NCBI RefSeq assembly: GCF_019635155.1
Contig: NZ_JAHBZY010000013.1
Span: 33,422 to 97,421, forward strand
Direction of reading: 5' to 3'
Length of the DNA: 64,000 bases
Source of the DNA: Nitrosomonas sp.
GTDB lineage: Bacteria > Pseudomonadota > Gammaproteobacteria > Burkholderiales > Nitrosomonadaceae
Position numbers and translations under genes: made by a program. The notes beneath the pieces were generated by a model, which saw only the letters and a list, made by a program, of their open reading frames with translations, was not told the DNA's origin and made no database searches. Every line of letters begins with the position of its first letter. The stretch's first letter is position 1. Shown piece after piece: positions 4,081 through 61,643 of the stretch.

Positions 4081-4191
4081 TCAATATCCTTTAAAGTGAC
4101 AGTCAAAATTTGAAATTATGCGGAATTATAAATCCTGTTGTGATGCCACATTATTTTTTCATTGAAATAATAACCGAGCGGGGGGCGTTGC

Positions 4192-4635: not shown

Positions 4636-6172
4636 ACGGCTGCGATGCGCGTTGGTAAACCCATTCATTCAATAACAAACGTGCTTCTGTAATGATTTCC
4701 GATGCCACCATTCCCAGTTTTCCTTGATGATGGCATACCCAGCGGTCTGCCGCAGCGCCGTGCAAATGAACTGCCAGCAATAAAGCCTGACCAGGGTGTA
4801 AGCCTTGCGCAAGAAGTGCGCCGATGATTCCTGCCAGCACATCGCCAGTACCGGCAGTGCTGAGCGCAGGGTTCCCGCTGGTGTTGAGGTAACGTTCGCC
4901 ATCGGGAAAGCAGCAGATGCTGCCAGCACCTTTCAGAACAACATAGCTGTTGAATTTATGCGCGATTTGTAATGCAGCATGCATGCGATTACTTTGCACG
5001 AGGATGCTATCGGTATTCAACAAGCGCGCGGCTTCGGCAGGGTGCGGGGTTAAAATGCTGACAGCGGTGCGTTGATTCAGTTTTTCGGCTAAATTGGAAT
5101 GTTGAGCAATCAGATTCAATGCATCGGCGTCCAATACGAGCGGGTGTGGACTGCCAAGCACGGCTTCGAGCAACGCCAGTGCCTGCGCCGATTGCCCTAA
5201 ACCGGGACCAGCGATCAAGCAATTCAGTGATTCCAATTCCATTAATGCGGATGGCGGGCGCAACATCAATTCCGGTTGAGAGAAATCGACAGCAGGCGCA
5301 TTTTCAGCCAATAATCCCGCATATACCCGGCCAGCACCCAAATGCAATGCAGCTCGGCCAGCGAGTAATGCTGCGCCAGTCATGCCGGTCGAGCCGCCGA
5401 GGATGGCAACATTGCCGAACGAACCTTTATGGCTATTGGCTGGCCGCGGTGGCGGCAGCAGGGAGGTAACGAACGCGTAGTTCAATAGCCAAGCTTGCGG
5501 TTGTGGTTGTTCCGGCGGTAAATGAACGCCAAGATCGCACAGCACCACTGTACCGCAGCATTCCGGCCCGAAATTAGTATACAGGCCGGGTTTGCGTCCA
5601 ATAAAGGTGACCGTAAGCGTTGCACGAATTGCAATGCCGTAAATGCATCCGTCGTCGCTGCCTAGACCGGATGGAATATCCAGCGCAACAATAGGTATCG
5701 CCATGCGGTTGACAATTTCGATCCAATTCCGATACTGACCCTCAATCGGCCGGTTGCGTGATTGATCCAGGCCGATGCCGAACAATCCATCTACCGCAAT
5801 ATTCCAGCTGCGATCGCCATCGGGGATATCGTGATGGATATCGCCGCCGCAATCCAGCCAAGCTTGCAATGCTTGCTTGGCATCGATTGGAACACAATTG
5901 CGGTCGCCAGCGAAAATTACGGTGACGGCATTACCCCATTCTTTCAAATAACGCGCCACGACAAAAGCGTCGCCCCCATTATTGCCCGGACCGGCAAGAA
6001 CAAGGATCGCTTGATTTGAGCGCTTCAATAGCTGATCGCGAATCACTTGTGCCGCCGCCAAGCCGGCTTTTTCCATCAGCGGCGGCGGATTAGGCAATTT
6101 CAGCGCTTGTTGCTCGATATCGCGGATCTGAGTGGTAAAAAAAATTGGGGCAGCGGCGGGCATAATAGTCAT
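4625..6172 (-). CDS. nnr: Bifunctional NAD(P)HX epimerase / ADP- or ATP-dependent dehydratase
   Basis: A 515-residue YjeF-type repair enzyme. It restores hydrated, inactive NADH and NADPH: the N-terminal half (about residues 10-215, with A-G-P-G-N-N-G-G-D-A-F-V-V-A-R) epimerises R- to S-NAD(P)HX. The C-terminal half (about 235-500) is the carbohydrate-kinase-like dehydratase, with G-S-F-G-N-V-A-I-L-G-G-S, D-A-D-A-L-N and the A-G-T-G-D-V-L-A-G-I motif. Both domains look complete. A second in-frame ATG lies three codons downstream (6163), so the exact start is uncertain. It is divergent from purL, and its end overlaps the DUF1810 gene by 11 bp. Confidence 0.95.
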   Translation of the reverse strand: MTIMPAAAPIFFTTQIRDIEQQALKLPNPPPLMEKAGLAAAQVIRDQLLKRSNQAILVLAGPGNNGGDAFVVARYLKEWGNAVTVIFAGDRNCVPIDAKQALQAWLDCGGDIHHDIPDGDRSWNIAVDGLFGIGLDQSRNRPIEGQYRNWIEIVNRMAIPIVALDIPSGLGSDDGCIYGIAIRATLTVTFIGRKPGLYTNFGPECCGTVVLCDLGVHLPPEQPQPQAWLLNYAFVTSLLPPPRPANSHKGSFGNVAILGGSTGMTGAALLAGRAALHLGAGRVYAGLLAENAPAVDFSQPELMLRPPSALMELESLNCLIAGPGLGQSAQALALLEAVLGSPHPLVLDADALNLIAQHSNLAEKLNQRTAVSILTPHPAEAARLLNTDSILVQSNRMHAALQIAHKFNSYVVLKGAGSICCFPDGERYLNTSGNPALSTAGTGDVLAGIIGALLAQGLHPGQALLLAVHLHGAAADRWVCHHQGKLGMVASEIITEARLLLNEWVYQRASQPFNC

Positions 6173-6249
6173 ACAAATGGGATCGTCAGCGATAAGTACA
6201 TCTTCTCGTGTAAAATTGCAAACTTTTAATCTTCGAACGATTGCATTTG

Positions 6250-9200: not shown

Positions 9201-10239
9201 TAGTTTTATCATCGGTCATTTGAATCAAATCGACGAAATCCGTTTGATGCGCAACAACAAACCGGTTTTGTCGGAAAAACGAGCCGATTTGCAGCGTGCT
9301 TGGTCGGAAACCAGCTATCAAATGCAAAAGTTGCGTGATCATCCGGTTTGTGCGCAACAGGAATTTGATCGTATCCTCGATAGTGAGGATCCCGGTTTGA
9401 AGATTGCGCTTAGCTATGAAGCAAGCGACGACATCGCCGCTCCGTTTATTCAAGCCGGTGTGCGTCCGTCTATCGCGATTCTGCGGGAACAAGGCGTCAA
9501 CGGTCATGTCGAAATGGCGGCAGCATTTGATCGTGCCGGTTTTTCCGCGATCGATGTACATATGAGCGACATCATCGCCGGGCGGATATCGTTGAAGGAT
9601 TTTCACGGTTTTGTCGCTTGCGGCGGATTTTCTTATGGCGATGTGCTTGGCGCCGGCGAGGGCTGGGCCAAGTCGATTTTGTTCAATCCGCGCGCGCGCG
9701 ATGAATTCGAAGCATTTTTTCGACGATCCGATACCTTCGCATTGGGTGTATGCAATGGTTGCCAAATGATGAGTAATTTGCAGGAAATCATTCCAGGTGC
9801 AACGGCATGGCCGCGATTTAAACGCAATTTGTCGGAACAATTCGAGGCGCGTTTGGTCATGGTGGAGGTACAACAGAGTCCATCACTGTTTTTTGAAGGC
9901 ATGACTGGAAGCCGTATGCCGATCACGGTGGCGCATGGCGAGGGGAAAACGGAATTTACGTCTACAGAGCAATCGCGGCAATCGGCAAGTCTGGTGACAC
10001 TGCGATATATCGATCATCGCGATCAAGTGACGGAAATTTATCCGTATAATCCGAATGGTTCGGCGCAGGGAATCACCGGCTTAACGACACCGGATGGACG
10101 TTTTAATGTATTGATGCCGCATCCGGAAAGGGTGTTCCGCGTAACGCAGCATTCCTGGCATCCGGATTTACGCGTTGACAATGCCGAAGATGGCCCCTGG
10201 ATGCGTTTGTTCCGTAACGCGCGCAAATGGATCGGGTAA
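6250..10239 (+). CDS. purL: Phosphoribosylformylglycinamidine synthase
   Basis: A large single-chain PurL of 1329 residues, the usual size in Beta- and Gammaproteobacteria. It converts FGAR, glutamine and ATP to FGAM in purine synthesis. Visible features are the N-terminal PurS-like domain, the central ATP-binding repeats ([18 protein letters not shown]), D-V-G-A-G-G-L-S-N and [10 protein letters not shown]-terminal class I glutamine amidotransferase has the nucleophile in G-V-C-N-G-C-Q near residue 1167 and the M-P-H-P-E-R-V-F end motif. I chose the ATG at 6250 rather than the in-frame TTG at 6241, because [11 protein letters not shown] fits the family N-terminus. It appears to be transcribed alone. 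Confidence 0.97.
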
Positions 10240-10277
10240 TTGTAAATGCCTATTAACTCACTGAAAGAACAATTCAA

Positions 10278-11507
10278 ATGGTAAATTTTCTTGACAATCG
10301 CGGTAACCGCATTCTAGGACTCGTGGTCATGGTGCTCGGGCTGGCGATGAATCCAGCGTACGCAATGATCACGCCGTCAAAAAAACCGGTTTCGAATCGG
10401 TGCGTGCCGCTGGGAGACTGGGTAGTGCCGGGCTCCGGCAAGGTTTCGCAACAGCAGGTAATCGCTCGCGCCGCTGAGGCGGAAGTGGTGTTGTTAGGTG
10501 AAACGCACGTCAATGCCGATCATCATCGCTGGCAATTACAAACACTGACGGCGCTGCACGCGCAGCGTCCGAATATGGTGATCGGTTTTGAAATGTTTCC
10601 GCGCCGGGTGCAAGGCGCATTGGATCGATGGGTTGCAGGCGAACTGACGGAGCAGGAATTTCTACGCGCATCCGATTGGAATCATGTATGGAATACCGAT
10701 CCGAATTTGTATTTGCCATTGTTTCATTTTGCCCGCATGAATCGGATTCCAATGTTGGCATTGAACATTGAAACAAAATTGCGCCGCCAGGTGGCGGAAA
10801 AAGGTTTTTACGGCGTATCGTTGGAAGAGCGTGAAGGTTTGACGCGCCCAGCCGAACCGAGTCAAGCTTATTTGGATTATTTAATGCCGATTTATAAACA
10901 GCATGACCGGAAGAATAAACCGGCAGGGGAGATCTCTCAACACGACCCGGATTTCCGCCGGTTTATCGATGGTCAATTGTTGTGGGACCGGGCTATGGCG
11001 CAAGTATTGCAGCAAGCAGTCAACGATTCCGTCGCATCAGGTAAACCGCTAGTGGTCGGTGTGATGGGCTCCGGTCATGTGTTGCACGGTTTCGGCGTAC
11101 CGCATCAGCTGCATGATTTGGGGATCAAAAACGTTTCAGCATTGTTGCCGTGGGACAATGATAAATCTTGCAAGCAACTGGTAGCCGGTGTCGCGGATGC
11201 GGTTTTCGGCGTGTTGCCGCATGTTCCGGAGCTATTCCGCCCGCAATTTCAGCGGCTTGGAATTCGTTATGAGATGGGGCGGGGCGGAGCAGTGGTTTTA
11301 CAAGTTGAAAAAAACAGCGTTGCCGAGGCTGCCAATCTGATGGATTCCGACGTTATTGTGGAAATGGCCGGCGTATCCATTAAGGCAACAGACGACGTGA
11401 TCAATGTGGTCAAACGGCAAGCGCCGGGAACCTGGCTGCCGATCAAAATTAAACGCGATAATCAGGATATGGAAATTATCGCGAAATTTCCACCAATCAA
11501 AACTTAA
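10278..11507 (+). CDS. ChaN-like haem-binding/Tiki-fold protein with C-terminal PDZ domain
   Basis: A 409-residue exported protein: the signal peptide runs to about residue 28 (A-Y-A-M). The body (about 65-290) belongs to the ChaN/DUF399 family, recognisable by V-V-L-L-G-E-T-H-V-N-A-D-H-H and G-F-E-M-F-P-R-R-V-Q. Those motifs line the ligand- or metal-binding cleft in ChaN, an iron-regulated outer-membrane lipoprotein. There is no lipobox here. The last 80 residues look like a PDZ domain (V-L-Q-V-E-K-N-S-V-A-E-A-A-N-L then D-V-I-V-E-M-A-G). It lies 38 bp after purL and 18 bp before a metallopeptidase gene, with which it probably forms an operon. Iron or haem handling is inferred from the family only. 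Confidence 0.82.
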   Translation: MVNFLDNRGNRILGLVVMVLGLAMNPAYAMITPSKKPVSNRCVPLGDWVVPGSGKVSQQQVIARAAEAEVVLLGETHVNADHHRWQLQTLTALHAQRPNMVIGFEMFPRRVQGALDRWVAGELTEQEFLRASDWNHVWNTDPNLYLPLFHFARMNRIPMLALNIETKLRRQVAEKGFYGVSLEEREGLTRPAEPSQAYLDYLMPIYKQHDRKNKPAGEISQHDPDFRRFIDGQLLWDRAMAQVLQQAVNDSVASGKPLVVGVMGSGHVLHGFGVPHQLHDLGIKNVSALLPWDNDKSCKQLVAGVADAVFGVLPHVPELFRPQFQRLGIRYEMGRGGAVVLQVEKNSVAEAANLMDSDVIVEMAGVSIKATDDVINVVKRQAPGTWLPIKIKRDNQDMEIIAKFPPIKT

Positions 11508-50145: not shown

Positions 50146-50266
50146 ATAATTTGAATATGCTGTTTTCTGTTCACACGTTGGAATACGCACGCAGAAAAAC
50201 GTTTATTGACATATCGCACCAGGACGATAACAAGCTTCGGAAAGCCTGGAAAAATTTTACCGCCCA

Positions 50267-50294
50267 ATTGCGTATAATTTGTACGGAGTAAAAT
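50267..50294. other. Hybrid dif-like site (left boundary of Xer element)
   Basis: The XerC arm ATTGCGTATAA and centre TTTGTA are identical to the complete site at 52432, while the XerD arm is degenerate (CGGAGTAAAAT, 6 of 11 identical). Including two flanking bases, 19 bp are exactly repeated (50265-50283 and 52430-52448). This is the pattern expected at one end of an element inserted by XerC-first recombination. Confidence 0.75.
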
Positions 50295-50527
50295 CCAAAA
50301 AAACGGAAAATTTTGCAAAAATTAATAAAATTTTTTCTTGCTAGTTCCGAACACCGATAAGCGCGGAAAAGTTTTCACCTCCAAATTCAATAACAAAAAC
50401 ATTCTATTCCTCAAAAACATGCCTTTTCATTCTCTCGTTGTCTCAACGATCACACCCTCAATGCCGCCTTGCGGTGACTTCCCAGTCATGCGCTTAGCTT
50501 AGCAATGGGGCGGGGTTGAGACTGGCA

Positions 50528-50782
50528 GCGGCTTCGCAAAACAGCCACACAAGGAACATACCCGCTTACGCCGACTTGAGAACCCCTACGTTTTGCGGCA
50601 AGCCGCAAAGCCTCGAGGCCCCCTTTCAAGATCGGCTGCTAGTGAAAGTCATTTTTTTAACTTCCAAGCATGCAACAGTCAGAGACGGTAAGAAAAGAAT
50701 ACCCCGCCCCCCGCGCAGCCCAGCCACAGGCTTGGGCTTGCGCTCGGGCGGGGACAGGCAAAACCGGCAGCTTGCAGCTGCC
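50528..50782. repeat. Cluster of three strong hairpins in non-coding DNA
   Basis: Three inverted repeats follow one another. The first pairs 50528-50542 with 50590-50606. The second is a GC-rich hairpin with 24- and 25-nt arms and a 3-nt loop (50702-50725 and 50729-50753). The third is a perfect 7-bp stem (50766-50772 and 50776-50782). No gene is supported in 50295-50828. Such clusters mark the intergenic region of filamentous phages (origin, packaging signal); that role is inferred. Confidence 0.7.
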
Positions 50783-50828
50783 AGCCTGCCCCGACATTCC
50801 AACCAACCCAACCACATACCCCCACACA

Positions 50829-51056
50829 CTAACCCCCCAAACGCTCCAGGTGAATCAGCAAATCATCCTCAATGCGAATAATGCGCGGTGTCGAGACATC
50901 GACGCCCAAAACCGCCTTAATCGCTCTACAGTGACTTTTAAACTTCCGAGAGGGGTAGAGCATGGATAAATCACTTCCACGCAGCCAGAGACGATATGCA
51001 ACAGCGTGATAAGGGTCTAAATCAGAAACGACACCCATGTTTTTCTCGAGGTTCAT
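50829..51056 (-). CDS. Small uncharacterised protein of the Xer element
   Basis: 75 residues, cytoplasmic, Leu- and Arg-rich (D-P-Y-H-A-V-A-Y-R-L-W-L-R-G-S-D-L and I-R-I-E-D-D-L-L-I-H-L). The composition is protein-like and it ends next to the hairpin region. The start ATG is part of an ATGA overlap with a frame from upstream. A 23-codon frame (51067-51138) fills most of the gap to the helix-turn-helix gene. No family is recognised. Confidence 0.5.
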   Translation of the reverse strand: MNLEKNMGVVSDLDPYHAVAYRLWLRGSDLSMLYPSRKFKSHCRAIKAVLGVDVSTPRIIRIEDDLLIHLERLGG

Positions 51057-51149
51057 TCCAGTACCCTCAGAGCGCGCACATGCCGGTAATGAAACAAAGT
51101 GCCAGCTGGTCGCATTCTTCCTCGTTCCTCGTCATCATGCGCCAGCTGT

Positions 51150-51377
51150 TCACTTGCCAACAACCTTAAATTGCCGTGGTTGAAGCTTCCTGACAGCATA
51201 GCTGCGCAAATCAGGGCCGCGTTTACCTGGCTTGATGTTAAGAGGGCAGGCAATGCGCCAGACGTTGGAATCATCCCTATAGCCATCAATACGCCCCTGA
51301 GAAAGCAGTGTCCTTACTCTGCGCTCAGAAACTTCAAGAAAATCAGCCACGTCAGAAACGCTTAAAAATTGTGTCAA
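51150..51377 (-). CDS. Excisionase-like helix-turn-helix protein
   Basis: 75 residues from a TTG at 51377 that is preceded by AAGGAGAG; a GTG at 51407 is the alternative. The fold signature is F-L-S-V-S-D-V-A-D-F-L-E-V-S-E-R-R-V-R-T-L-L-type followed by G-R-I-D-G-Y and V-W-R-I, i.e. a MerR/excisionase-class winged helix. The Xer element has no integrase of its own, so this protein is more likely a regulator than a true Xis. Confidence 0.65.
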   Translation of the reverse strand: MTQFLSVSDVADFLEVSERRVRTLLSQGRIDGYRDDSNVWRIACPLNIKPGKRGPDLRSYAVRKLQPRQFKVVGK

Positions 51378-51500
51378 AAATCTCTCCTTTTTCGAGTCTA
51401 AAAACACCCCGCAAACCCATTGAACTGGTGCGGAATAGTATTTTGCCTAATAATTAAGCAAAAAAGTGATCTAAGTCATTGAAACTTTAAAATTGATCAC

Positions 51501-51528
51501 AAAACAATAAAAGTCTCAAATTGAGACT
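51501..51528 (-). terminator. Probable terminator after the HTH/VC1465-type gene
   Basis: A 7-bp stem with 3-nt loop (51512-51528) is followed on the minus strand by a T-rich tract (51501-51511). It separates the upstream gene pair from the helix-turn-helix gene at 51150. Confidence 0.5.
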
Positions 51529-51544
51529 GAACGGCATAGTGTTA

Positions 51545-51988
51545 CTAGCCGATTGATGAATTTTTTTTCCTCCCATTTTTTGGCCGGACAAAGGGCAGCA
51601 AATTCGATCTTTCTGGAGGTAATCCGGATTTGCGTTTTTCCTCCCGTTCGAGCCGCCATTGATTAGCCATTGCAAAAGTAAGTGAAAGGTAATTTAAATC
51701 GGGTGCAGTGAATTTTTTCCCCTCGGGTGACCATAAGGCATCACCCGAGAACCTCCAGCCCCGCCAAGCGTCGCTAGGAAGCTCGTAACCTGTTAGAATG
51801 TGCAGAAGCTTAAAAGCCGCATAGGGCACTTGAATCCGGCCAGATTCCCAATTGTGCAGTGTGCGGTAAGTCACTCGAAGCATTTCAGCCGCTTCCTTCT
51901 TGCTAAGCCCTGACAAAATGCGGGTTTCACGTAGTTTTTCATGACTGACAGGTCTGTAAGGTTTGCGTCGATTCCTGCATTTTTTCAC
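51545..51988 (-). CDS. XRE-type regulator, phage VC1465-like family
   Basis: 147 residues starting with GTG that overlaps the previous stop (GTGA). A helix-turn-helix spans residues 18-65 (R-I-L-S-G-L-S-K-K-E-A-A-E-M-L-R-V and L-H-N-W-E-S-G-R-I-Q-V-P). P-S-D-A-W-R-G-W-R-F and F-T-A-P-D-L follow, as in regulator-like proteins encoded near filamentous phages. It may bind the GCGGAA-type repeats nearby. Confidence 0.7.
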   Translation of the reverse strand: MKKCRNRRKPYRPVSHEKLRETRILSGLSKKEAAEMLRVTYRTLHNWESGRIQVPYAAFKLLHILTGYELPSDAWRGWRFSGDALWSPEGKKFTAPDLNYLSLTFAMANQWRLEREEKRKSGLPPERSNLLPFVRPKNGRKKNSSIG

Positions 51989-52170
51989 CTAATCAACAAT
52001 TTACAGGGTGGATAAACGACCCATTGCCATAGATGCCGGTCAAAGCGAGCGCCGGTAATCTTCCCGGTTCTACAGTAGTGAATGAATTGGCCAACACTTA
52101 AGCCATGACTGGCAGCAAAGCTACGAGCAAGAACAGGGCGGCCGGATTGGGTCTCATGCGTTTTTTTCAT
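51985..52170 (-). CDS. Small HTH-like protein coupled to the XRE gene
   Basis: 61 residues from the ATG at 52170, which lies one base after the stop of the upstream gene and behind GGTGAA. A-R-S-F-A-A-S-H-G-L-S-V-G-Q-F-I-H-Y-C and K-I-T-G-A-R-F-D-R-H suggest a short winged-helix or helix-turn-helix unit. It overlaps the next gene by four bases, so both should be made together. Confidence 0.55.
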   Translation of the reverse strand: MKKTHETQSGRPVLARSFAASHGLSVGQFIHYCRTGKITGARFDRHLWQWVVYPPCKLLIR

Positions 52171-52171
52171 T

Positions 52172-52360
52172 TCACCGGTTCCTTTGCTCGTCGCAGTGTT
52201 CAAGATAATTTTCTAAAGACCCATATTTGAATTTCAATTCAAGCAGAGCCAGCTTGACCGGAAGCCAAAGAAAAACATTTATCCAGAAACTATTGAATCC
52301 GAGAAATCGAAGCAGATTCATGTAGTGCAAAGAATGCACATTTACAAAATAACAAAACAT
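52172..52360 (-). CDS. Small membrane protein, first gene of the Xer-element operon
   Basis: 62 residues with GGGAG seven bases before the ATG. One hydrophobic helix (about residues 15-38) is followed by a charged tail (L-E-N-Y-L-E-H-C-D-E-Q-R-N-R). Its stop lies one base before the next start, which supports real translation. A similar small membrane protein is coupled to zot at 62037-62225, although the sequences are not clearly related. Confidence 0.5.
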   Translation of the reverse strand: MFCYFVNVHSLHYMNLLRFLGFNSFWINVFLWLPVKLALLELKFKYGSLENYLEHCDEQRNR

Positions 52361-52379
52361 TTTTAACTCCCAAAAAGAG

Positions 52380-52416
52380 CAAAACTGTTCCGCCTTTAAT
52401 CACAAAACTATTCCGC
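52380..52416. promoter_or_regulatory. Repeated operator-like motif before the Xer-element operon
   Basis: CAAAACTGTTCCGC (52380-52393) and CAAAACTATTCCGC (52403-52416) are tandem copies 23 bp apart. A related copy in the other orientation lies at 51430-51445 (GCGGAATAGTATTTTG). They flank the operon that encodes three small DNA-binding-type proteins and end 16 bp from the dif site. Confidence 0.55.
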
Positions 52417-52431
52417 AAAAAGTATAAAGCA

Positions 52432-52459
52432 ATTGCGTATAATTTGTATTATGTTAAAT
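52432..52459. other. dif-like XerC/XerD recombination site
   Basis: XerC arm ATTGCGTATAA, 6-bp centre TTTGTA and XerD arm TTATGTTAAAT. The XerD arm is identical to that of E. coli dif and the XerC arm matches at 8 of 11 positions. It may be the chromosome dimer resolution site itself, which would place the window in the replication terminus region, or a copy carried by an element. Confidence 0.85.
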
Positions 52460-52573: not shown

Positions 52574-53212
52574 TCAGTGATCTCGATACATGTATTCAAT
52601 CAAATCGCGGACTATTTCTAACAGACTTCCAATTGCTAAACCATCGAAAGGATCACCGTGAGCCAGTGAATTTCTAAAGCTCACAAGAGTATCACTTCGT
52701 TTTGTACCGTTTTGTTCTTTGTCATCCGAAAAGAAATTAGCAATTACCGAACCTCCCGATTTATTATAAATTTGAAGCTTCTCATCGTTGAGTCCGTCAT
52801 AATCAACCATAAATCTTAATCCAGCTGATAAGAAAGAATTCACACCATTTAGCATGTACTTTGGAACACTTTTCTTATCCTTTTTCAGCAACTCTTTCCT
52901 TTTATCCTGAAACTCACACCAATACCGATCTCTAAGTGCTAATTCCAGTGCCGCAAACGCCGCTAATTCACCAGCTTTGATTACATCATAGCGAATCCAT
53001 GCCATTAAGTATAAAGCTTGCGCTCTTTCATATTTAACGCTTATTGCTTGCGGGATTTTTTTATTCAGCGGGAATCCAGAAATGAATTGATCCCAATCAG
53101 AGTAATAATGAAACGCATGAGGTTTAGAAGGATTTCCGGGACTTGCCCAACATATGCAAAGTGGATACTCTCGGGTTTCAGCTATATTCAGCAAATCTAA
53201 GCCGTGCATCAT
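52574..53212 (-). CDS. HEPN-motif candidate next to dif
   Basis: A 212-residue soluble protein of no family I can name. Two features stand out: a helical centre A-A-L-E-L-A-L-R-D-R-Y-W and, near the C-terminus, F-R-N-S-L-A-H-G-D, an R-x4-H motif like the catalytic motif of HEPN ribonucleases. HEPN proteins are common in toxin-antitoxin and abortive-infection systems. The gene is AT-rich and stands alone between the dif site and the Mu-like element, with no obvious antitoxin. Confidence 0.55.
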   Translation of the reverse strand: MMHGLDLLNIAETREYPLCICWASPGNPSKPHAFHYYSDWDQFISGFPLNKKIPQAISVKYERAQALYLMAWIRYDVIKAGELAAFAALELALRDRYWCEFQDKRKELLKKDKKSVPKYMLNGVNSFLSAGLRFMVDYDGLNDEKLQIYNKSGGSVIANFFSDDKEQNGTKRSDTLVSFRNSLAHGDPFDGLAIGSLLEIVRDLIEYMYRDH

Positions 53213-53552: not shown

Positions 53553-54167
53553 TCATTCACTTAATGCATGCAGCTTCTGAACATTAGCGCCTTTCTTGAG
53601 TTCAAGCTCTTGTATCTTTGCTTTAATTACTTGAATCATTTCGCGGCGTTCTTTTAAGCCAGGCCCGATTTCACTTGGCATGATTCGGGCATAGCCAAAC
53701 TCTTCGGGTGTCATTTTTTCCATGATGCTGCGTATAGTCGGCTCTATCGTCTTGAAAAGCAGCGCCAGAAATACCCGGTCATCGCTTTGCGATTTATTCG
53801 GGGTAAAGATTTGGCATGCCGGATAATCCCCCAATTTGCCTGAAAAAACATTTTCAATTGTTTGGTATTTCAGTGGATATCCATGTTCGCCCGCCATGCC
53901 TTGCCAAGCGGTGTTAGTAGCCAAGCCAGCCAATGCGGGACGGATAGCTCCCATTTCATAATTTTCTGCACCAAGGAATAAAATTTTCATGATGCCGTCT
54001 TTCAAATCTTCCAGCGGTAAGTAAGATGTTAGCAACCAGTCAAGTTCCCTCTTGGCTTCGGCAATTTCAACATCTATCGCTTCATTCTCGGATTTAAGCG
54101 TTTGCTTAAGTATCTTGATATTTTCATAAGCAGATATAGCGTCATCAAATTGATTTCCGTTTTTCAT
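53553..54167 (-). CDS. Uncharacterised coiled-coil protein of the Mu-like element
   Basis: 204 residues, soluble. Both ends are predicted helical or coiled coil (I-K-I-L-K-Q-T-L-K-S-E-N-E-A and I-Q-V-I-K-A-K-I-Q-E-L-E-L-K), with a globular centre. It lies 17 bp downstream of the Mor-type gene in the place where transposable phages begin their lysis and head genes. It is not similar to any such gene that I recognise. Confidence 0.6.
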   Translation of the reverse strand: MKNGNQFDDAISAYENIKILKQTLKSENEAIDVEIAEAKRELDWLLTSYLPLEDLKDGIMKILFLGAENYEMGAIRPALAGLATNTAWQGMAGEHGYPLKYQTIENVFSGKLGDYPACQIFTPNKSQSDDRVFLALLFKTIEPTIRSIMEKMTPEEFGYARIMPSEIGPGLKERREMIQVIKAKIQELELKKGANVQKLHALSE

Positions 54168-54184
54168 TCATAAATCCTTGTTGT

Positions 54185-54565
54185 TTATGATTCATTGATA
54201 ATTCGCCTTACTTGGCGATCTGTCAGATCGTATTTCATGGCAATATCCCTATGGCTCATGCCTTTTTTGGCATCTTCGATAATGGCCTGACGCCGCTTTT
54301 TGATTTCAAGGCTTGAGAGCATGGGTAAAGTCAATGCCACGCCATCGAAATGGAATATCATTTTCTCGGCATTTTCTTCACCGACAATGATATTCAGCCG
54401 CTTGCGTGACCTATCGCTGTTTGAAACATGTAGTCGCGTGCCGCCAAAAACCGTGCATAGCCGGGTAAAGGCATCATCGCCGATCAGGTTCAGCAGCTCT
54501 TGATTCTCGTTGTTGTCGTTTACTGGCATATCAGCTTGCATTTGTAAATGTGGAACATTGTCCAC
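54185..54565 (-). CDS. mor: Mor-family transcription activator
   Basis: 126 residues. L-N-L-I-G-D-D-A-F-T-R-L-C-T-V-F-G-G-T-R-L-H-V-S matches the dimerisation half of the Mor/C family, and K-G-M-S-H-R-D-I-A-M-K-Y-D-L-T-D-R-Q-V its helix-turn-helix. In phage Mu, Mor activates middle transcription. Here almost nothing lies downstream for it to activate except one gene. Confidence 0.8.
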   Translation of the reverse strand: MDNVPHLQMQADMPVNDNNENQELLNLIGDDAFTRLCTVFGGTRLHVSNSDRSRKRLNIIVGEENAEKMIFHFDGVALTLPMLSSLEIKKRRQAIIEDAKKGMSHRDIAMKYDLTDRQVRRIINES

Positions 54566-54668
54566 TGCATAATGCCAAACTGAACGAATTGAATTAAGGC
54601 GGAAAGCTTTCCGCTCCTTTGTTAAAGCCGAATATTTGTTAGTGATTTAAAAAAGAGTAAACTTAAAA

Positions 54669-55125
54669 AGCGGGTGCGACACGGTAATATTCTCCCGGCC
54701 GTAGCACGGCAGCAATGCCGGAGCGATATGTGAGGTTTCCAGGAAACTGGGTTGGGGGGCCTCACCGCCCGCCCATCAATCATATTTCATGATTCAATGC
54801 TGCACGTGCCGATAAAACAAAGAGCAAAACCGGCGCCGGATTCGAACCGGATCATAGCGGCCTTTCGACCCCCAACCATTCCCATTGGAAACAACCGGCT
54901 TTGCTCAAAACTGCAACGGGTGGGAGGCCGGACATCCCTCCATCCAGGATCACTCAAGTAACCAAGCCTGTGGACTCCGAAATTTCCACAGCTCACCCGT
55001 AAATCTTTGAAAATACTGCGCGGGTGGTGGGGCCCCCCAGTCCGGTTTCCCGGCAACCCCACATATCACTCCGGCATTACTGCCGTGTTACGGCCGGGGG
55101 AATATCACCGTGTCACACCCGCGCT
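54669..55125. repeat. Large imperfect inverted repeat (arms about 105 nt)
   Basis: The left arm (54669-54772) and the reverse complement of the right arm (55018-55125) align over nearly their whole length with scattered substitutions, about 80 % identity by eye. Each arm also contains smaller palindromes around CGGCCGT...ACGGC and GCAATGCCGGAG. The 245 nt between them hold a further 12-bp inverted repeat. A transcript in either direction would form a very long hairpin. The layout recalls the leader of ash/icd-like genes of phages, which I cannot confirm. Confidence 0.85.
54822..54906 (-). repeat. Inner stem with tRNA-like T-arm
   Basis: Arms 54822-54833 and 54895-54906 pair over 12 bp with one G-U. 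On the minus strand the enclosed 61 nt contain CCGGTTCGAATCCGG, a perfect T-arm look-alike, but no proper D or anticodon arms. This is not a standard tRNA. Confidence 0.6.
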
Positions 55126-55196
55126 TTTCATTCTATACTCTACTTTGACTTACTTCTATATATTTCATAATAGGCATTGGATTCAATGCCTTGTCA

Positions 55197-55505
55197 TTAT
55201 ACTGCATCATCATTATCGATGATTGGTTTCATATTACGGTTGATATCGCCGTACCGATAGGCCATGTTTTTAATCGCGGCCGTCATGAACTTGGCCAATA
55301 CTTCCGGCCTGAACTCGACTTTTTCATTCAAATGCTGAAGTACCTTTTCTTCGTTCGTCATAAATTCATCGTCCGACAGCGGCTCAATGTATACACCGCC
55401 ATCGCGGCCGAACGTGACCAACCAGCGGGAACCAGGTAGGTTTCTCATGGTTTCCGAATCGATACGGATTTCGGGATATTTTTTCTCTTTCGCTTTAGCG
55501 ACCAT
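55197..55505 (-). CDS. Uncharacterised small protein of the Mu-like element
   Basis: 102 residues from the ATG at 55505, chosen because GGAGGG lies five bases upstream; an ATG four codons earlier is also open. Charged and soluble (Y-P-E-I-R-I-D-S-E-T-M-R-N-L-P-G-S-R-W and Y-I-E-P-L-S-D-D-E-F). It overlaps the end of a 42-residue gene upstream. The function is unknown. Confidence 0.6.
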   Translation of the reverse strand: MVAKAKEKKYPEIRIDSETMRNLPGSRWLVTFGRDGGVYIEPLSDDEFMTNEEKVLQHLNEKVEFRPEVLAKFMTAAIKNMAYRYGDINRNMKPIIDNDDAV

Positions 55506-55623
55506 GACGCCCTCCAATTACTTGGACGAGTTTGAGCAATTGGCCGGGTACGAATTGCTGAGTCGATTCCTTGCCGGATGGCTGGCTCAATCGAAATGAG
55601 ACGGGATAAAAAATTTGCTGCAT
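55495..55623 (-). CDS. Short gene (42 residues) with strong ribosome site
   Basis: A frame too short for usual size cut-offs. AAGGAG lies seven bases before its ATG at 55623, and its end overlaps the start of the next gene by 11 bp, a typical coupled arrangement. The peptide begins M-Q-Q-I-F-Y-P-V-S-F-R-L and ends V-I-G-G-R-H-G-R. No similarity is recognised. Confidence 0.5.
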   Translation of the reverse strand: MQQIFYPVSFRLSQPSGKESTQQFVPGQLLKLVQVIGGRHGR

Positions 55624-55780
55624 GGTGTTACTCCTTGTCTAACGGTTAAATTACCGCTGCCCTGCTTCCAAACAGGGAGGCGGAACTGTGCAGGTTGGAA
55701 GACCGGGACAAGGTTCCGGCGAGCCTCTCGGCTCCCCGCACAGCCCGCCAAAAACTGGCTAGCCATGCTTGATGACGGAC

Positions 55781-55803
55781 AAAAAAATAACCGCTTTAGC
55801 GGC
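55781..55803 (-). terminator. Probable terminator between the gemA and 55.2-55.6-kb units
   Basis: On the minus strand CCGC-TAAA-GCGG with flanking weak pairs is followed by a run of seven T (55781-55787). It lies within 55624-55994, a 371-bp stretch with no gene and with several CGCGTTA repeats near 55870-55950. Confidence 0.5.
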
Positions 55804-55994
55804 TTGTCCGCCTTGTCTTCGGGCTTCCAAACCCGGCGCGGTGTTTGGCCGCGACTTTTTTCACTCTAACGCGTCATTAATGACTCGTCAAGTTGAAGTT
55901 CTGCTATTTCGCGTTAAAAACTATTCAAACTAGCTGCTACGCGTTAAATATCTTTCGCGCGTCCTTCCCTATTCATTTTCTTTTTGATCGAAAT

Positions 55995-56477
55995 TTAACG
56001 CACGTTTAACGGTGTTTTTGCGGCATGTTTATTCATGCCGTGATTGTCATTTTTCTGTTTTTTATATTCTGACCATTTCTCCAAGCCGATAATGACCTTA
56101 GAAATCGATTGCCGGGTTAAAAATCGCGGGCTTTCCAGTTTGGTAATGCGCTTAACAAAAGCCGCGAATTGCGGCGTCATGGCATTGCCAAAACCCAACC
56201 GCCGCGCAAGTATCTCCATCTTGCGCCATTGAATTTGCGTTGGCCGGTTTGGTGCACTCCCGGTAGCCTTACGCTCCAAGCAACCTTGCTGCCTGAGTAA
56301 AGCGACTAGCTCCCGTAATTGCTCATCCGTTAAATCCTTACAGCTCGTCTTGCCGGTCAAATTTTGCAACCATGTACGGTATTCAATGCTGCCATGTTCA
56401 ATATTAAGCTGCTGCGCGGCAATATGAACCATAGCCATCAGCTTATGGCGCGGCGTTGGCTTCCATGTTTGTTTCAA
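55995..56477 (-). CDS. gemA: GemA family regulatory protein (Mu gp16-like)
   Basis: 160 residues. The N-terminus H-K-L-M-A-M-V-H-I-A-A-Q-Q-L with S-I-E-Y-R-T-W-L is typical of GemA/DUF1018 proteins of Mu-like phages. So are the central T-G-K-T-S-C-K-D-L-T-D-E-Q-L and the C-terminal R-Q-S-I-S-K-V-I-I-G-L-E-K-W. In Mu, the gem products change host DNA topology and gene expression. It follows the MuB-like gene by 16 bp in the early operon. Confidence 0.85.
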   Translation of the reverse strand: MKQTWKPTPRHKLMAMVHIAAQQLNIEHGSIEYRTWLQNLTGKTSCKDLTDEQLRELVALLRQQGCLERKATGSAPNRPTQIQWRKMEILARRLGFGNAMTPQFAAFVKRITKLESPRFLTRQSISKVIIGLEKWSEYKKQKNDNHGMNKHAAKTPLNVR

Positions 56478-56493
56478 ATCATTTGTCCGTATA

Positions 56494-57621
56494 TTATACT
56501 TTTTTGTAAAACATTAAGCTATCATGATTGATTTTCCCGAAATCATACAATGAGTTTTTAAATGCTTTAACCAAGGTGCGTAACCCTCCTTCCCCCATAC
56601 CCACCTTTAAACACCATTCAAGTTCCTTTTTACCTGATACCCCCCAGCTTTGCATAAACAGCAAAATATCATTGTCGGTCAGCTTGATGGGCTTTTCGCA
56701 GGTAATTCTGCTGGTAATTTGAATACTTTTTAGTTCTCTTGCACGCTGGAGCATTTCCCCGTTACTCAAAAGAGCAATTCCAAATAGCTTACGATCAATG
56801 AATGTTCTCAAGGCATTTGCAATCGTTCCCCCTGAAGACCTTGTAATTCCGATAAACCGGCCAAGATGATTGGCTTCATCAAAAATAAACACTCCACCCC
56901 GGTGATAAATAGCCATGCGCTCTATCAATTTTTCCAGCATATCAATTTCTATTTTTTCATTGGGTTCAATTACATCACCATTGAACTTCCCGCTTGCGTA
57001 TATTGCGCAAGCCATTTCAAGAAGGATAATTTTTAACGTCAGATTTGTTTCACGCAAAGTGATTGCCCACACTGGGGCGTCAAATCCTTCAGATTTCCGA
57101 CATTGCAATTGATATTGTGCAATTGCACTGGTTTTTCCATGTCCAGGCGGCGATGGGATTTCAATCAAATCCTGCATGACACGGGCTTTATGAATTTTTT
57201 CCATAATATTTGCAGCAACACTCGTTGCAACAAAGCATGGCTCATTAAATTTATTATTCTGTTCATTATCTTGAGCATCAAGCCATTTTTCTAACTGTGA
57301 TTCAATCGTTTTTGCTAAGGGTTCCTGATTCCAATGGCGGCCGGGCTCGCGGAATTTAGAACTGTCTTTTATCCATCCTTCTATACAGGCTTTCCAAGTT
57401 TCAACAGTATTATAATTTCGCCTTGTTCCGTCATCTTGGGGCATAGTTTCAATAGCAATCTGAAGCAAAGTAATACTGCTTGAAGCCATTTTTTCCAATA
57501 CCCGATTTCTCAACGCTTCCCATTGGGTTTTATCAAAATTTGTTTTGTCTGGATGGCACTCTAATGGTTCAAACGTATTGGCTTCTAAATCATCAGATAA
57601 ATCGATTGCTTGCGTGGTCAT
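56494..57621 (-). CDS. AAA+ transposition ATPase (MuB/TnsC-like)
   Basis: 375 residues from the ATG at 57621, which overlaps the transposase stop as ATGA and has AAAGGAG seven bases upstream. Walker A P-P-G-H-G-K-T-S, Walker B G-V-F-I-F-D-E-A-N-H and sensor-like L-L-S-N-G-E. It should bind target DNA and activate the transposase, as MuB does. It has no recognisable N-terminal DNA-binding extension of the TnsC type. Confidence 0.9.
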   Translation of the reverse strand: MTTQAIDLSDDLEANTFEPLECHPDKTNFDKTQWEALRNRVLEKMASSSITLLQIAIETMPQDDGTRRNYNTVETWKACIEGWIKDSSKFREPGRHWNQEPLAKTIESQLEKWLDAQDNEQNNKFNEPCFVATSVAANIMEKIHKARVMQDLIEIPSPPGHGKTSAIAQYQLQCRKSEGFDAPVWAITLRETNLTLKIILLEMACAIYASGKFNGDVIEPNEKIEIDMLEKLIERMAIYHRGGVFIFDEANHLGRFIGITRSSGGTIANALRTFIDRKLFGIALLSNGEMLQRARELKSIQITSRITCEKPIKLTDNDILLFMQSWGVSGKKELEWCLKVGMGEGGLRTLVKAFKNSLYDFGKINHDSLMFYKKV

Positions 57622-59744
57622 ATTTTTTCTCCTTTTACTTGGTTTTGCCTCATCCATTCAGGTAAGTTTTCCTTTTGCTGTTCTAATCTCAGCTGTTCTA
57701 TCTCTTTTCCGGTCGAATCCGAAGCTGCACTAAAAGGCTTAAACTTAGGTTCAGATTTGATAGTTATTTCACCGGTTTGAGTGTTTAAGATGCTTCCATC
57801 TTCTTGAATTCTGATGTGATCGTCCGGCTCAAGCTGTTTTTCTGGTGGTAGCTTAATGATGTTTTCAGCCTGTGGAAGGGGCGGTAATGTGGTTTGTCCA
57901 CTCGGTAAAACTGGCAAGATGGGAAGCTCTCCTTTAAAGATTTTAAGGCGCTTGCGGTTTTGTTTGATTGTGTTAGAGCGTTTTTTTGGGGTTTCTCCCC
58001 ATGCCTCTTGATCATCAAATGTGGTAGGCCATATATAACTTGCTTCACCTAAATAACGCTCACCATCGAAAACAAGAGCCGGGGCAGTCGGATCAGCATT
58101 ATCCGGCAGCACGTCATATTCATAAGTACGGGTCAATTTAAGCTCTTCAGGCGGTTCATAACGAACTTCGCCAAACCCCTTTAATTTAAACGAAAAAAAG
58201 TATTGCGAGCGTAATTTAACCCGGAAGGCGTAAGGTCGCATTGCGGCCAATTGAAGCTTGTCTGGTTTGTTTGGCGTATATTCCTTCGAAAGCTCTTCAT
58301 AGAGTTCTATCGGTGTTTTGCCAAACATGCCTTGGCCGCCGTGCGGCGTGTTGTGAAACTCATGAATCCCCTGAACCAAACGTTCGGCAAATTGCGCGAT
58401 CGGAATAGCATGTTCTGGGTCGCATTCTTCCGGTTTTTCTACAGTATTACGACCGGTATATGCTTTTTGGAAAAGACAGTCTACGGACTTTGCCAATTTG
58501 CCCCAAAATGATTCAATGGGTTTGGATGCGCCATGATATGGGGTTGTCCAATGAACTTTAACGCCTAGCCTAGTTAGCGCTCCAATTGGTTCGTTTTCTT
58601 TGATGGTGAAGCGATAGCGGGTTTTCTGCCCGCCCGTAAATGACTTATTGGCGTATCCTCTACCATTGTCTATGATGACACCTACTGGAATAGTGCCCGC
58701 ACGACGCAATGCAGATTCAAATGATTCCATTATAATTTCGCCATTCTCGACATGATAAATGCGAACTGATAGTACAACGCGAGTCCTTACTTCACGCCAC
58801 ATGACTACAAACGGACGCCTAACCGTCGTACCATCTGGCCACCGGCAAAGAACATCAGCTTTCCGTCCGTCTGATTCCCACCGTTGATGAAGGTTTAGTG
58901 CTGTGTAATCACGCCATTGATGAGGTAGCTTTTGTTTAAGTGCTGTCGGCCCATCGCGCCCCAATATGCGAAGATTCTCGGGTATATCATCTTTGATGCG
59001 TCTCAGGAATGTTTTGTAACTAGGCAATTCACCCCAGTTTTGTGCCTTCGCTGCTTTGAGTGTCCCGTTATAGATCACTGAAGCATCGGGTTTGTTTTCG
59101 GATAACCAATTACCCGCAAAAAAATTCCAAGCGGGTTCAGGTATTTCAGTTTTAGAACGCCCTTGATAATCAGCTGCAAGCAAGAATTCCCAGTAATGGC
59201 GCGGATGTTTATCGATTCTTTTCACCAAGCGGTACAAAGTTGCTCTTGATAATTTTTTGTAACGCTCACTGAGGATATTTAACGCTGATTTTTGTTTGAA
59301 ACCTGCCTGTAATAGCTGAAAATACTCATCTAATATAAGTAGACGCCTTTGTGCCTCAGCTTTGATACTTGGTGCTTTTCTGTTGTAGTTATCAGCCAAA
59401 ATTTCATACGTCTCATGATCGAATTGCAAGTTTTGGTTGTTTTCATAAACCACCGGCAAATCGGATTGCTGTGTTTTGTGATGCTCTAACCAGTACTTGG
59501 CTTGGATTGGTTCAGGTAGGCTGGATAAAAGGATTTCATATTGCTTTCCCCCGTTACCACTGATCGAGCGAAATTTATATTGCCCATCTTTATAGCGCCC
59601 TTCTTTTTCACCACATGTCTTTCTGATTGCTTGAGCACTGACTCCACGCAGCTCAGCAACCTTCTTAATGGGAAGCCAAATAAGGTGATTGGTGGTTGCT
59701 ACCTTTTCAATTTCTCTTGAATTATCTGCTTTATTCTCAATCAT
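57618..59744 (-). CDS. MuA-like DDE transposase
   Basis: 708 residues. An N-terminal Mu-type DNA-binding domain (W-L-P-I-K-K-V-A-E-L-R-G-V-S-A-Q-A-I and F-R-S-I-S-G-N-G-G-K) is followed by helix-turn-helix segments. The RNase-H core carries catalytic Asp about 292 (W-E-S-D-G-R-K), Asp about 359 (V-I-I-D-N-G-R-G-Y) and Glu about 411 (K-P-I-E-S-F-W-G). A Mu C-terminal beta domain and tail end the protein. All catalytic residues are present, so it may be active. Coupled to the MuB-like ATPase. Confidence 0.95.
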   Translation of the reverse strand: MIENKADNSREIEKVATTNHLIWLPIKKVAELRGVSAQAIRKTCGEKEGRYKDGQYKFRSISGNGGKQYEILLSSLPEPIQAKYWLEHHKTQQSDLPVVYENNQNLQFDHETYEILADNYNRKAPSIKAEAQRRLLILDEYFQLLQAGFKQKSALNILSERYKKLSRATLYRLVKRIDKHPRHYWEFLLAADYQGRSKTEIPEPAWNFFAGNWLSENKPDASVIYNGTLKAAKAQNWGELPSYKTFLRRIKDDIPENLRILGRDGPTALKQKLPHQWRDYTALNLHQRWESDGRKADVLCRWPDGTTVRRPFVVMWREVRTRVVLSVRIYHVENGEIIMESFESALRRAGTIPVGVIIDNGRGYANKSFTGGQKTRYRFTIKENEPIGALTRLGVKVHWTTPYHGASKPIESFWGKLAKSVDCLFQKAYTGRNTVEKPEECDPEHAIPIAQFAERLVQGIHEFHNTPHGGQGMFGKTPIELYEELSKEYTPNKPDKLQLAAMRPYAFRVKLRSQYFFSFKLKGFGEVRYEPPEELKLTRTYEYDVLPDNADPTAPALVFDGERYLGEASYIWPTTFDDQEAWGETPKKRSNTIKQNRKRLKIFKGELPILPVLPSGQTTLPPLPQAENIIKLPPEKQLEPDDHIRIQEDGSILNTQTGEITIKSEPKFKPFSAASDSTGKEIEQLRLEQQKENLPEWMRQNQVKGEKI

Positions 59745-59827
59745 TGATTAATAATTAAAATATTGAATCCAAGCAAAATAAAATGGTTGCGACCTTAGTT
59801 GCTACCTTTTGCGTAAAAGGTAGCAAC

Positions 59828-60043
59828 TTAATCACCAACGATTTCACCTTCTTTAATACCCAATAAAACAGCGATTTTGTGAGATTTACCGAAGCGACAA
59901 CCAATCCTTCCACTCAAAACACCACTTACAAGTGATGGAGTGAAGCCATTTTTTATGGCCCAAGAGCGTATGCTCATCCCGTTTTTATCAAGATTCACTT
60001 TAACTTCTTGCGCAGAGAGCATTTTTCGTGTTTTCATTATCAT
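59828..60043 (-). CDS. BcepMu gp16-type DNA-binding regulator
   Basis: About 71 residues; the start may be 60043, with AGGA just upstream, or 60037. G-M-S-I-R-S-W-A-I-K-N-G-F-T-P-S-L-V-S-G-V-L-S-G-type motif and H-K-I-A-V-L-L-G-I-K match the small regulator between repressor and transposase in BcepMu-like phages, functionally like Ner of Mu. It would shut off early transcription. Confidence 0.8.
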   Translation of the reverse strand: MIMKTRKMLSAQEVKVNLDKNGMSIRSWAIKNGFTPSLVSGVLSGRIGCRFGKSHKIAVLLGIKEGEIVGD

Positions 60044-60058
60044 AATTCCTATTAACAA

Positions 60059-60117
60059 TTAATAATAATTGTGCATTATGCACTATTTTGTGTGCATTTT
60101 GAACATATTTAAGTGCG
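60059..60117. promoter_or_regulatory. Divergent operator region of the transposable element
   Basis: The short space between the gp16-type gene and the divergent repressor holds GTGCATTATGCAC (60071-60083, palindromic) and a second TGTGCATTTT copy about 18 bp on. These are probable repressor sites that overlap both promoters. Confidence 0.6.
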
Positions 60118-60519
60118 ATGAAAACTGGCGATAGATTAAGAGCTGAACGAGAACGCTTGGGACACTCCCAAGATCAATGGGCATCGGTCACCGGTATTCA
60201 TCGAAATACACAAGTAAAATACGAGAAGGGGGAAGGCTCGCCAAATGTTGAATATTTGGCAGCTATTGAAAGCATAGGTGCGGATATTGATTTCATTATT
60301 ACTGGAGAGAAAACTGTGTATAGAGAATCCTCTCCAGATTATGAGTGCCCAATAATTTCAAAGATTGTTGAGCAGTTAGAGGCAGTTCTTAATAAGAATA
60401 ATCAAGTGCTATCTCCTCAGAAGAAAGCCCAGGCTGTAGTAATTCTTTATCGGCTTGCTTATCCGAACAAACAGGTTACTGAGAAAATGGTGAAAGAGGT
60501 AATTGAACTTGCGGAATAA
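60118..60519 (+). CDS. XRE-family repressor of the Mu-like element
   Basis: 133 residues. Helix-turn-helix at residues 5-60 (D-R-L-R-A-E-R-E-R-L-G-H-S-Q-D-Q-W-A and H-R-N-T-Q-V-K-Y-E-K-G-E), then a helical tail. It is divergent from the early operon over a palindromic operator, as a lysogeny repressor would be. It reads toward the outer end of the element. Confidence 0.85.
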   Translation: MKTGDRLRAERERLGHSQDQWASVTGIHRNTQVKYEKGEGSPNVEYLAAIESIGADIDFIITGEKTVYRESSPDYECPIISKIVEQLEAVLNKNNQVLSPQKKAQAVVILYRLAYPNKQVTEKMVKEVIELAE

Positions 60520-61161: not shown

Positions 61162-61446
61162 TTAGCCGGATGTCTTTACAAGCGCGGTGAAGTCAGACCA
61201 CTGCTCGATACGAAACGCGCGGATGTCACGGACGGATTGAGGAAACCAAGGTTGGGAGCGCAGAGATTGGATAGCTAGAAACAAGTTGGCCATGTCTTCG
61301 TTGTCATTGATGTAAAGGCTACCTTGAACGCGTTGAAATCCATAGTCAGACAGAATAGCGCCAATTTCAGCATAGGCTTGCGTGACGCCTTTGGGGTGAT
61401 ATTTTTCCGTATCGGATACAACAAGATCAAAGGCAACGGCGTACAT
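61162..61446 (-). CDS. vapD: VapD-family endoribonuclease (toxin-like)
   Basis: 94 residues. M-Y-A-V-A-F-D-L-V-V begins a ferredoxin-like fold related to Cas2; Y-A-E-I-G-A-I-L, G-F-Q-R-V-Q-G-S-L-Y and S-V-R-D-I-R-A-F-R-I are VapD signatures. The Asp after A-F is the usual catalytic residue. Its start overlaps the stop of the preceding gene (TAATG), the normal toxin-antitoxin arrangement. Confidence 0.88.
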   Translation of the reverse strand: MYAVAFDLVVSDTEKYHPKGVTQAYAEIGAILSDYGFQRVQGSLYINDNEDMANLFLAIQSLRSQPWFPQSVRDIRAFRIEQWSDFTALVKTSG

Positions 61447-61643
61447 TATTGAGCTTCCGGGTCATTCATTAAGTGTGTCAAACGATATTCGGTCTTTTCA
61501 CCAGTTTCAATCAGGGTGATTTCAATCAGCCAGTCGCCGTCATCGAGTTGACGCAGCGCTTGGCCTATTTGGTATTTGGGGCCGATAGAGCCAAAGCTTT
61601 TAATTGTGCCAATAGGTAATTCAGGTTGTGTGGTAGTTTGCAT
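61446..61643 (-). CDS. DUF5397-like VapD partner, putative antitoxin
   Basis: 65 residues: P-I-G-T-I-K-S-F-G-S-I-G-P-K-Y-Q-I-G and D-G-D-W-L-I-E-I resemble small proteins encoded directly before vapD. Coupled by TAATG overlap. The antitoxin role rests on position and family. Confidence 0.7.
   Translation of the reverse strand: MQTTTQPELPIGTIKSFGSIGPKYQIGQALRQLDDGDWLIEITLIETGEKTEYRLTHLMNDPEAQ

Follow-up and report, generated by a model that had tools for sequence, protein, structure and literature searches.

A probable Rep-less satellite of filamentous phages integrated at the dif site of a Nitrosomonas genome

TLCphi of Vibrio cholerae is integrated at dif by Xer recombination and is described as carrying no structural or morphogenesis genes (PMC4246890; PMC5357621; PMC4439123), and in the attP reported for it the XerC arm and the centre match dif while the XerD arm diverges (PMC4246890; PMC5357621). 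The element of Nitrosomonas considered here is like TLCphi in these respects: dif and a half-dif site enclose 2165 bp in a window of 64,000 nucleotides (the whole stretch that was analysed, G000:C5:33422-97421), which belongs to a 3.09-Mb assembly of 49 contigs. According to the same accounts TLCphi has an autonomous replication module (PMC4246890; PMC5357621), and its initiator is likened to pfam05144/05155 (PMC4439123), the same family as in the likely helpers of the present case, whereas the window element has no catalytic replication protein (Rep) and seems to borrow a helper origin. The gonococcal genetic island (GGI) is reported to have the same type of attachment (att) site as the element, with XerC arm and centre matching dif and a divergent XerD arm (PMC5357621). 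With its 57 kb and its type IV secretion genes, the GGI is otherwise unlike the element. We know of no phage signals in it.

RS1 resembles the element in being a small satellite of a dif-integrating filamentous phage, the CTXphi of Vibrio, and in carrying a regulator, which in RS1 is an anti-repressor. RS2, the replication part of CTXphi, encodes RstA. RS1 is described as essentially identical to RS2 (PMC4439123), while the window element lacks a Rep, and no anti-repressor was recognised in it. Laboratory phagemids and the Ff microphage, which combine an f1 origin with a packaging signal, are presented as relying on helper Rep at a borrowed origin and on a cis signal for packaging (PMC4403547), and by inference the window element would work like a phagemid; laboratory phagemids are man-made and have neither dif-type integration nor regulators of their own, whereas the window element is natural. 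The inovirus satellite plasmid pDolos of Shewanella is comparable as DNA described as spreading via an inovirus (PMC13230959; PMC11389934), although it is a satellite plasmid, titled autonomous, and the window element is chromosomal and Rep-less. Nitrosomonas is listed as an inovirus host by Roux et al. (2019), in whose main text the word "satellite" is absent (PMC6813254), and a literature search that turned up papers on TLCphi, RS1 and pDolos, and covered few subscription papers or preprints, found no Rep-less dif element.

The window element is very probably a Rep-less, Xer-integrated satellite of filamentous phages, in effect a natural phagemid with an att site like that of TLCphi, as judged from its sequence and that of its relatives. 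The element itself, its att sites, the empty sites of relatives, the signals shared with inoviruses and the selection on its genes are solid, and replication and packaging by a helper are strongly suggested. We have filed it as an integrative mobile element exploiting Xer (IMEX) and a probable filamentous-phage satellite, and not as a member of the TLCphi or RS1 groups, because it has no replication initiator of its own of the TLCphi/RS1 type, E1 being merely a fragment resembling the X domain. Its parts are the following, lengths of proteins being in amino acids (aa).

50265..50295, plus strand: left site, a half-dif like those of TLCphi and GGI, with XerC arm and central region intact and XerD arm degenerate
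50561..50643, plus strand: conserved structured block of 83 nt common with inoviruses, putative packaging signal
50829..51056, minus strand: E1, 75 aa, resembling the C-terminal X domain of the G2P replication protein; accessory gene
51150..51407, minus strand: E2, 85 aa, HTH_17/excisionase-like DNA-binding protein (PF12728, 4.2e-6; phrog_2907 excisionase, 3.3e-5; alignment A2)
51513..51551, plus strand: putative rolling-circle plus origin of type A, hairpin GTCTCAAATTGAGAC followed by hairpin CGGCATAGTGTTACTAGCCG
51539-51546, plus strand: GTGTTACT core of the origin
51545..51988, minus strand: E3, 147 aa, phage regulator with an XRE-type helix-turn-helix (HTH) and DUF3653 (PF12375, 1.7e-12)
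51985..52203, minus strand: E4, 72 aa, conserved basic protein (alignment A3; nothing convincing in Pfam)
52172..52360, minus strand: E5, 62 aa, conserved hydrophobic small protein (alignment A6)
52432..52459, plus strand: right site, perfect chromosomal dif, ATTGCGTATAA-TTTGTA-TTATGTTAAAT

The original prediction had placed a complete dif at 52432-52459 and a half-degenerate copy to its left, and both sites held up. The right one is a full site and the sole match at up to 3 mismatches in the whole 3.09-Mb assembly, and since the cumulative GC skew of the window has its maximum at 50 kb, declines to 60 kb and rises slightly afterwards, in a terminus-like course, we take it to be the chromosomal dif. 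The left copy has 19 bases identical to dif (XerC arm and core), followed by CGGAGTAAAAT in place of TTATGTTAAAT. A 17-nt half of dif found two matches in the window at up to 3 mismatches, both exact, against a mean of 0.35 in shuffled sequences. The right-hand dif is read as regenerated by the insertion. Between the two sites lie five small open reading frames (ORFs), all on the minus strand and all as predicted, and those of E2, E3, E4 and E5 have homologues at dif in relatives. No integrase gene was recognised among these ORFs in Pfam and PHROGs scans, and the ORF list and the same scans revealed no coat, Zot or other assembly gene, so the predicted absence of these functions was borne out and the set of Zot/pI, coat and Rep genes of a complete inovirus is lacking. 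As expected of an IMEX, dif and a dif-like att site lie at the chromosomal dif, there is no integrase, and the empty site occurs in relatives; as expected of a satellite, coat and assembly genes are absent and cis signals of a helper are carried.

Recurrence was analysed in 125 genomes of the family. E3 matched in 48 of them, and only strong matches (E at most 1e-20) were counted as elements, which gave 16 genomes including the window's own and left out the 32 with weaker E3. All 16 have one E3 copy within ~1 kb of dif, on the strand opposite to dif; extra copies were found in G090, as a tandem array, and in G067, where a second copy lies near a contig end. Carriers of the gene set span at least two genera. 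The dif pattern itself was detected in 95 genomes, being single in 93 and double in 2. A half-dif closes seven of the elements, which measure 2165, 1764, 1846, 1832, 1810, 2273 and 1690 bp; half sites of the window geometry are present in L034, L036, L038, L039, L042 and L044, and in G083 a half site, the structured block and homologues of E1 and E2 are followed by the end of the contig. The gene set might, as the original prediction had considered, have been a fixed part of a larger inovirus, which is not the case at the seven loci closed by their own half-dif and dif. The left copy might likewise have occurred in genomes without the element, but a half site less than 3 kb left of dif was found at 7 of the 16 loci with an element and at 1 of the 52 without one, element-free loci with a left flank shorter than 2 kb having been excluded.

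Empty sites, which the original prediction had proposed to search for, were found as counterparts of the elements of G122 and G043; none was found for the left flank of the window itself. The empty site of G118 matches the left flank of the G122 element with 94% identity over 2995 bp, reaching dif, and its right side with 95% over 38 bp before diverging; that of G119 matches the same element on the left with 89% over 2996 bp and on the right with 88% over 372 bp past a 220-bp offset. For G042 and the G043 element, identity is 85% over 280 bp on the left, and on the right 85% over 100 bp and 97% over 776 bp past a 2-kb offset. In G122 the XerC arm reads ATTGCTAATAA in the half site and ATTGCCGATAA in the full dif, and therefore this element seems to have carried in its own XerC arm. 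Together with the position at dif in 16 of 16 genomes and the tandem array of G090, the two relatives with empty sites bear out the proposal that XerCD is exploited: use of the host Xer system for integration is supported, and a requirement for XerC/XerD is predicted.

When the window element was compared with that of G043, 919 of the 923 positions between the origin loop and dif proved identical, and of the 4 that differ one falls in the XerD arm. Immediately left of the loop, over 432 alignment columns, identity drops to 74%, and the two chromosomes, compared around uvrC/pgsA, agree at 83-86%. Against this background, a module delimited by dif and the likely nick site seems, in this one pair of elements, to have moved recently between species.

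The dependence on a helper, which the original prediction had drawn from the proximity of an inovirus, is now based on two shared non-coding signals, the origin and the structured block. The origin, an addition to the features predicted, is a two-hairpin motif common to the elements and to inoviruses of the same bacterial family. In type A, TGAACGGnnTAGTGTTACTAnCCG comes after a hairpin of variable sequence, which in the window is GTCTC..GAGAC; type B is TAACTTTACGTGTnAnTGGnACGTAAAGT. Type A was found at 25 places in 20 of the 125 genomes and at none in a reversed control; 10 places are in elements, and 14 of the other 15 are beside a G2P gene of the RepA type, whose tblastn match begins ~50-110 bp from the origin. 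Type B adjoins genes of the RepB type in L044, L036 and a locus of G089. The two Rep types are ~33% identical; the two RepB-type proteins that were scanned belong to PF05144/PF05155, and RepA-type genes are PF05144 matches in the genome census. The 16 element loci include 11 with type A (L042, L047 and L045 deviating from it by 1, 2 and 3 mismatches, respectively) and 3 with type B, and since one of these, the G041 element, has both, an origin was recognised in 13. The element origin of G014 (type B) matches the type of a Rep near dif, and G034, G035 and G041 combine a type A origin with RepA, G035 having also RepB-type sequence. GTGTTACT is present in the type A copies and in 3 of the 6 type B copies seen. 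The nick of CTXphi is placed in the loop of its second hairpin, where it separates G from T (PMC4439123), and because this location fits, the GTGTTACT loop of hairpin 2 is the candidate nick site.

When the 16 elements were compared by blastn with 14 inovirus stretches, the similarity was mainly in the origin and in window positions 50561-50643. This block is 88% identical over 98 nt to that of a G089 inovirus, with preserved orientation relative to the origin. The cluster of hairpins pointed out before is present, and its structure is evident from covariation across genomes and not from single-sequence folding, which is unremarkable in the hairpin region (z ~-1). In an alignment of 13 of the 19 extracted sequences, made of the better conserved copies (4 elements and 9 inoviruses or remnants), 98.8% of cells are paired and 12 of 20 pairs have changed on both sides. 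None of 500 shuffles reached the block values, except that 2 did so for the number of additional pair types, and sliding the structure over the block lowered pairing to 23-58%. Divergent copies in L038 (three), L111, the L042 element and L117 were omitted from this alignment, and weaker matches in L041, L044 and L126 were not extracted. Columns 23-24, 69-70 and 73-74 of alignment A5 also covary, as CC/GG/CC, TT/AA/TT and CT/AG/TC in most rows; this triple covariation exceeds one simple helix and perhaps reflects two alternative pairings. A covariance model found 36 block copies in 24 of the 125 genomes. Elements account for 6 of them; for 22, Zot or what remains of it (fewer than 25 residues in two cases) is no more than 2.4 kb away, and 2 adjoin other inovirus genes, both in G065. 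In Ff phages the packaging signal sits beyond the assembly genes. By analogy, from its position beyond Zot, the block is a likely packaging signal, and this is the weakest link of the model.

The absence of a visible replication protein, also part of the original prediction, stands for the catalytic part, since neither PF05144 nor PF02486 matched inside any of the 16 element loci and tblastn with two Reps found nothing there; it has to be qualified in that E1 resembles the X domain of G2P. E1 matched the G065 Rep at 1e-8 and RepA at 8.7e-5 in phmmer searches of a small pool, and PHROGs gave a replication protein at 0.034 and 0.0045; against PF05155 the match was weak (0.25; 0.013 for the G083 homologue). 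It has fewer relatives than E2-E5, and one pair gave a ratio of nonsynonymous to synonymous substitution (dN/dS) of 0.34. Purifying selection acts on E2-E5, with median dN/dS of 0.09 for E2 (17 of 21 pairs usable), 0.21 for E3 (16 of 21), 0.18 for E4 (26 of 36) and 0.15 for E5 (11 of 21), the maxima of single pairs being 0.29 for E2 and 0.28 for E3. E4 resembles, by eye, a small winged-helix/excisionase protein; it had no match in viral contigs, and in genome contigs it was found at 8 loci, 7 of Nitrosomonas or Nitrosovibrio and 1 of Proteobacteria. The slot of E5 is filled by a different small ORF in L038, L039 and L049. E3 had no match in the phage collection and none in viral contigs. In the elements of G090 and G082 (L042 and L037), the stretch from the left end up to E2 or E3 contains ORFs of 151-156 aa that are related to each other, apparently in an accessory slot.

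Integration would proceed by recombination of a circular form, which we infer, with dif by XerC/XerD, the attP consisting of the XerC arm, the core and a degenerate XerD arm. If a helper inovirus were active, its G2P Rep would nick hairpin 2 of the element origin within the GTGTTACT loop and so start rolling-circle replication of the element. The single strand might then fold the packaging-signal-like block and be taken up by the Zot/pI machinery of the helper, the element leaving in short filaments. E2, E3 and E4, which are DNA-binding or DNA-binding-like, probably silence the element or set its excision, and the X-domain fragment E1 may modulate the helper Rep or compete with it.

The original prediction had seen a partial inovirus to the right of the element. 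Its Zot gene and an inovirus-type neighbour are there, and it is incomplete because the contig ends with the window; as the helper it is no more than a candidate, the visible part having neither signal and a Mu-like prophage lying in between. This prophage part (53553-60519; Mu transposase, MuB-like, GemA and Mor genes) showed no structural genes among the listed ORFs. Beside the partial inovirus, at 61162-61643, are Cas2/VapD-like and DUF5397 genes; in L058, homologues of both are neighbours of the structured block and of an inovirus Rep. Directly right of dif, at 52574-53212, is a gene for a HEPN-domain protein, and G043 has a homologue on the same side of dif, ~1.5 kb off. Inoviruses are also integrated at dif in relatives, on the right side in L044 (+6394), L036 (+10148) and L133 (+6453), where the site at which they end has kept its XerD arm but has a degenerate XerC arm, and on the left side in L100 and L120. 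Searching the 16 element loci by tblastn with five Zot proteins gave one match, in L036, in the flank left of the element. At 3099-6253 the 10.1-kb inovirus at dif in L036 contains a gene for 907 aa, which matched ATPases weakly, and an ORF of 151 aa, a cargo that looks unusual for an inovirus. As for helpers elsewhere, contigs C28 and C29 of the window's assembly were rejected as candidates, their genes being of the Rep_trans type and their other ORFs unlike those of inoviruses, and PF02486 was rejected as the helper Rep family, the G2P of the likely helpers being PF05144. As to the likeness to TLC and RS1 elements claimed originally, the att type is that of TLCphi, and the initiator proper to those elements is missing.

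Several observations weigh against a Rep-less satellite. A left site was recognised in just 7 of the 16 elements, no recognised origin was found in 3, and the block was detected in 7 and not in the other 9. Of the signals outside elements, 1 of 15 type A origins (in G075) has no recognised inovirus gene beside it, and for 6 of the 36 block copies no gene of the tested set is nearby. The visible part of the window inovirus contains neither the block nor a type A origin, the G040 element has a type A origin while its resident inovirus has type B, and the window's own assembly has no recognised cognate inovirus G2P gene, its one PF05144 match being weak and within a Rep_trans gene of contig C29. 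G2P genes occur in 6 of 16 element genomes, that weak match counted, against 18 of 109 others (Fisher p 0.08); because a satellite can outlast its helper, this co-occurrence neither supports nor refutes the model. Finally, single dN/dS values reach 0.5 for E4 and 0.86 for E5.

Some of these points would suit a decaying remnant of an integrated inovirus that has lost its structural and replication genes and is now immobile. Such a remnant would share origin and block with inoviruses and could keep a Rep fragment such as E1, several relatives do look decayed (E3 is frame-broken in L040, L042, L043 and L047), and the left site is not recognised in 9 of 16. Decay is nevertheless hard to reconcile with the recurrence at dif of a compact gene set, similar across 16 genomes from two genera or more and closed by att sites in seven of them, and with median dN/dS of 0.09-0.21, and the empty sites and the 919 of 923 bases identical between two species indicate movement, so that we consider a remnant very unlikely. 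Movement could also be that of a pdif-like module mobilised by Xer, spread by plasmids or DNA uptake without packaging, its shared signals being relics. A TLCphi-type att site is reported to suffice for non-phage DNA such as the GGI (PMC5357621), and the co-occurrence with G2P genes is not significant; but origin and block keep the same orientation relative to each other as in phages, the pairing of the block is maintained, two origin types pair with two Rep types, and E3 in tblastn against plasmids yielded a single weak match, in Vibrio, all of which makes such a module highly improbable.

A third alternative retains the hijacking of helper replication and concerns the block, which could be a complementary-strand origin or a regulatory RNA, packaging being then brought about by other features. 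Its position and covariation are compatible with function as DNA or as RNA and do not separate the two, and the block is undetected in 9 of 16 elements, whereas its place close downstream of Zot in many inoviruses recalls the Ff layout and no Rfam family matched the element; we regard this alternative as rather doubtful, though deserving to be kept in mind. Returning to the Rep-less satellite, a more far-reaching version would have these elements form a natural-phagemid lineage of 1.7-2.3 kb, integrated at dif, which mimics two non-coding helper signals, swaps modules at the nick site and uses E1 as a modulator of helper replication. To this version as a whole we would give about an even chance.

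Genes like E3 were also seen outside the family. A class-level E3 profile matched in 80 of 369 genomes, mostly in the HTH part alone. In L222 (G249, 7430-10660), which comes from a different family of the class, a tandem pair of elements (1582 and 1605 bp) follows dif. Both contain an HTH gene that fits the E3 profile together with one more ORF, of 238 aa in the first element, and their half sites have the window geometry, with XerC arm and core intact followed by GACTCGTAAGG; they are possibly an independent lineage of the same kind. E3-like genes lie ~0.2 kb or less from a dif-like site in 5 of 7 distant loci (L222-L226), and a loose pattern allowing up to 3 mismatches found no such site near the E3-like genes of L221 and L227. 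L221 (G231, 6845-9614), from another family of the same order, contains a tandem of DUF3653-type genes (300 and 277 aa) ~1.4 kb apart, each with a partner of 121-124 aa. Regulators of the DUF3653 type may mark dif-integrated elements widely.

Satellite finders based on protein genes would probably overlook elements of this kind. The paired types of origin and Rep, together with the covarying block, provide testable definitions of the origin and the packaging signal for this group of inoviruses. TLCphi, RS1 and pDolos are described as bringing replication functions of their own; a Rep-less satellite in nitrifiers, if true, would show what minimal satellite DNA can be, and would offer a direct test of what the Rep and the packaging machine of an inovirus recognise.

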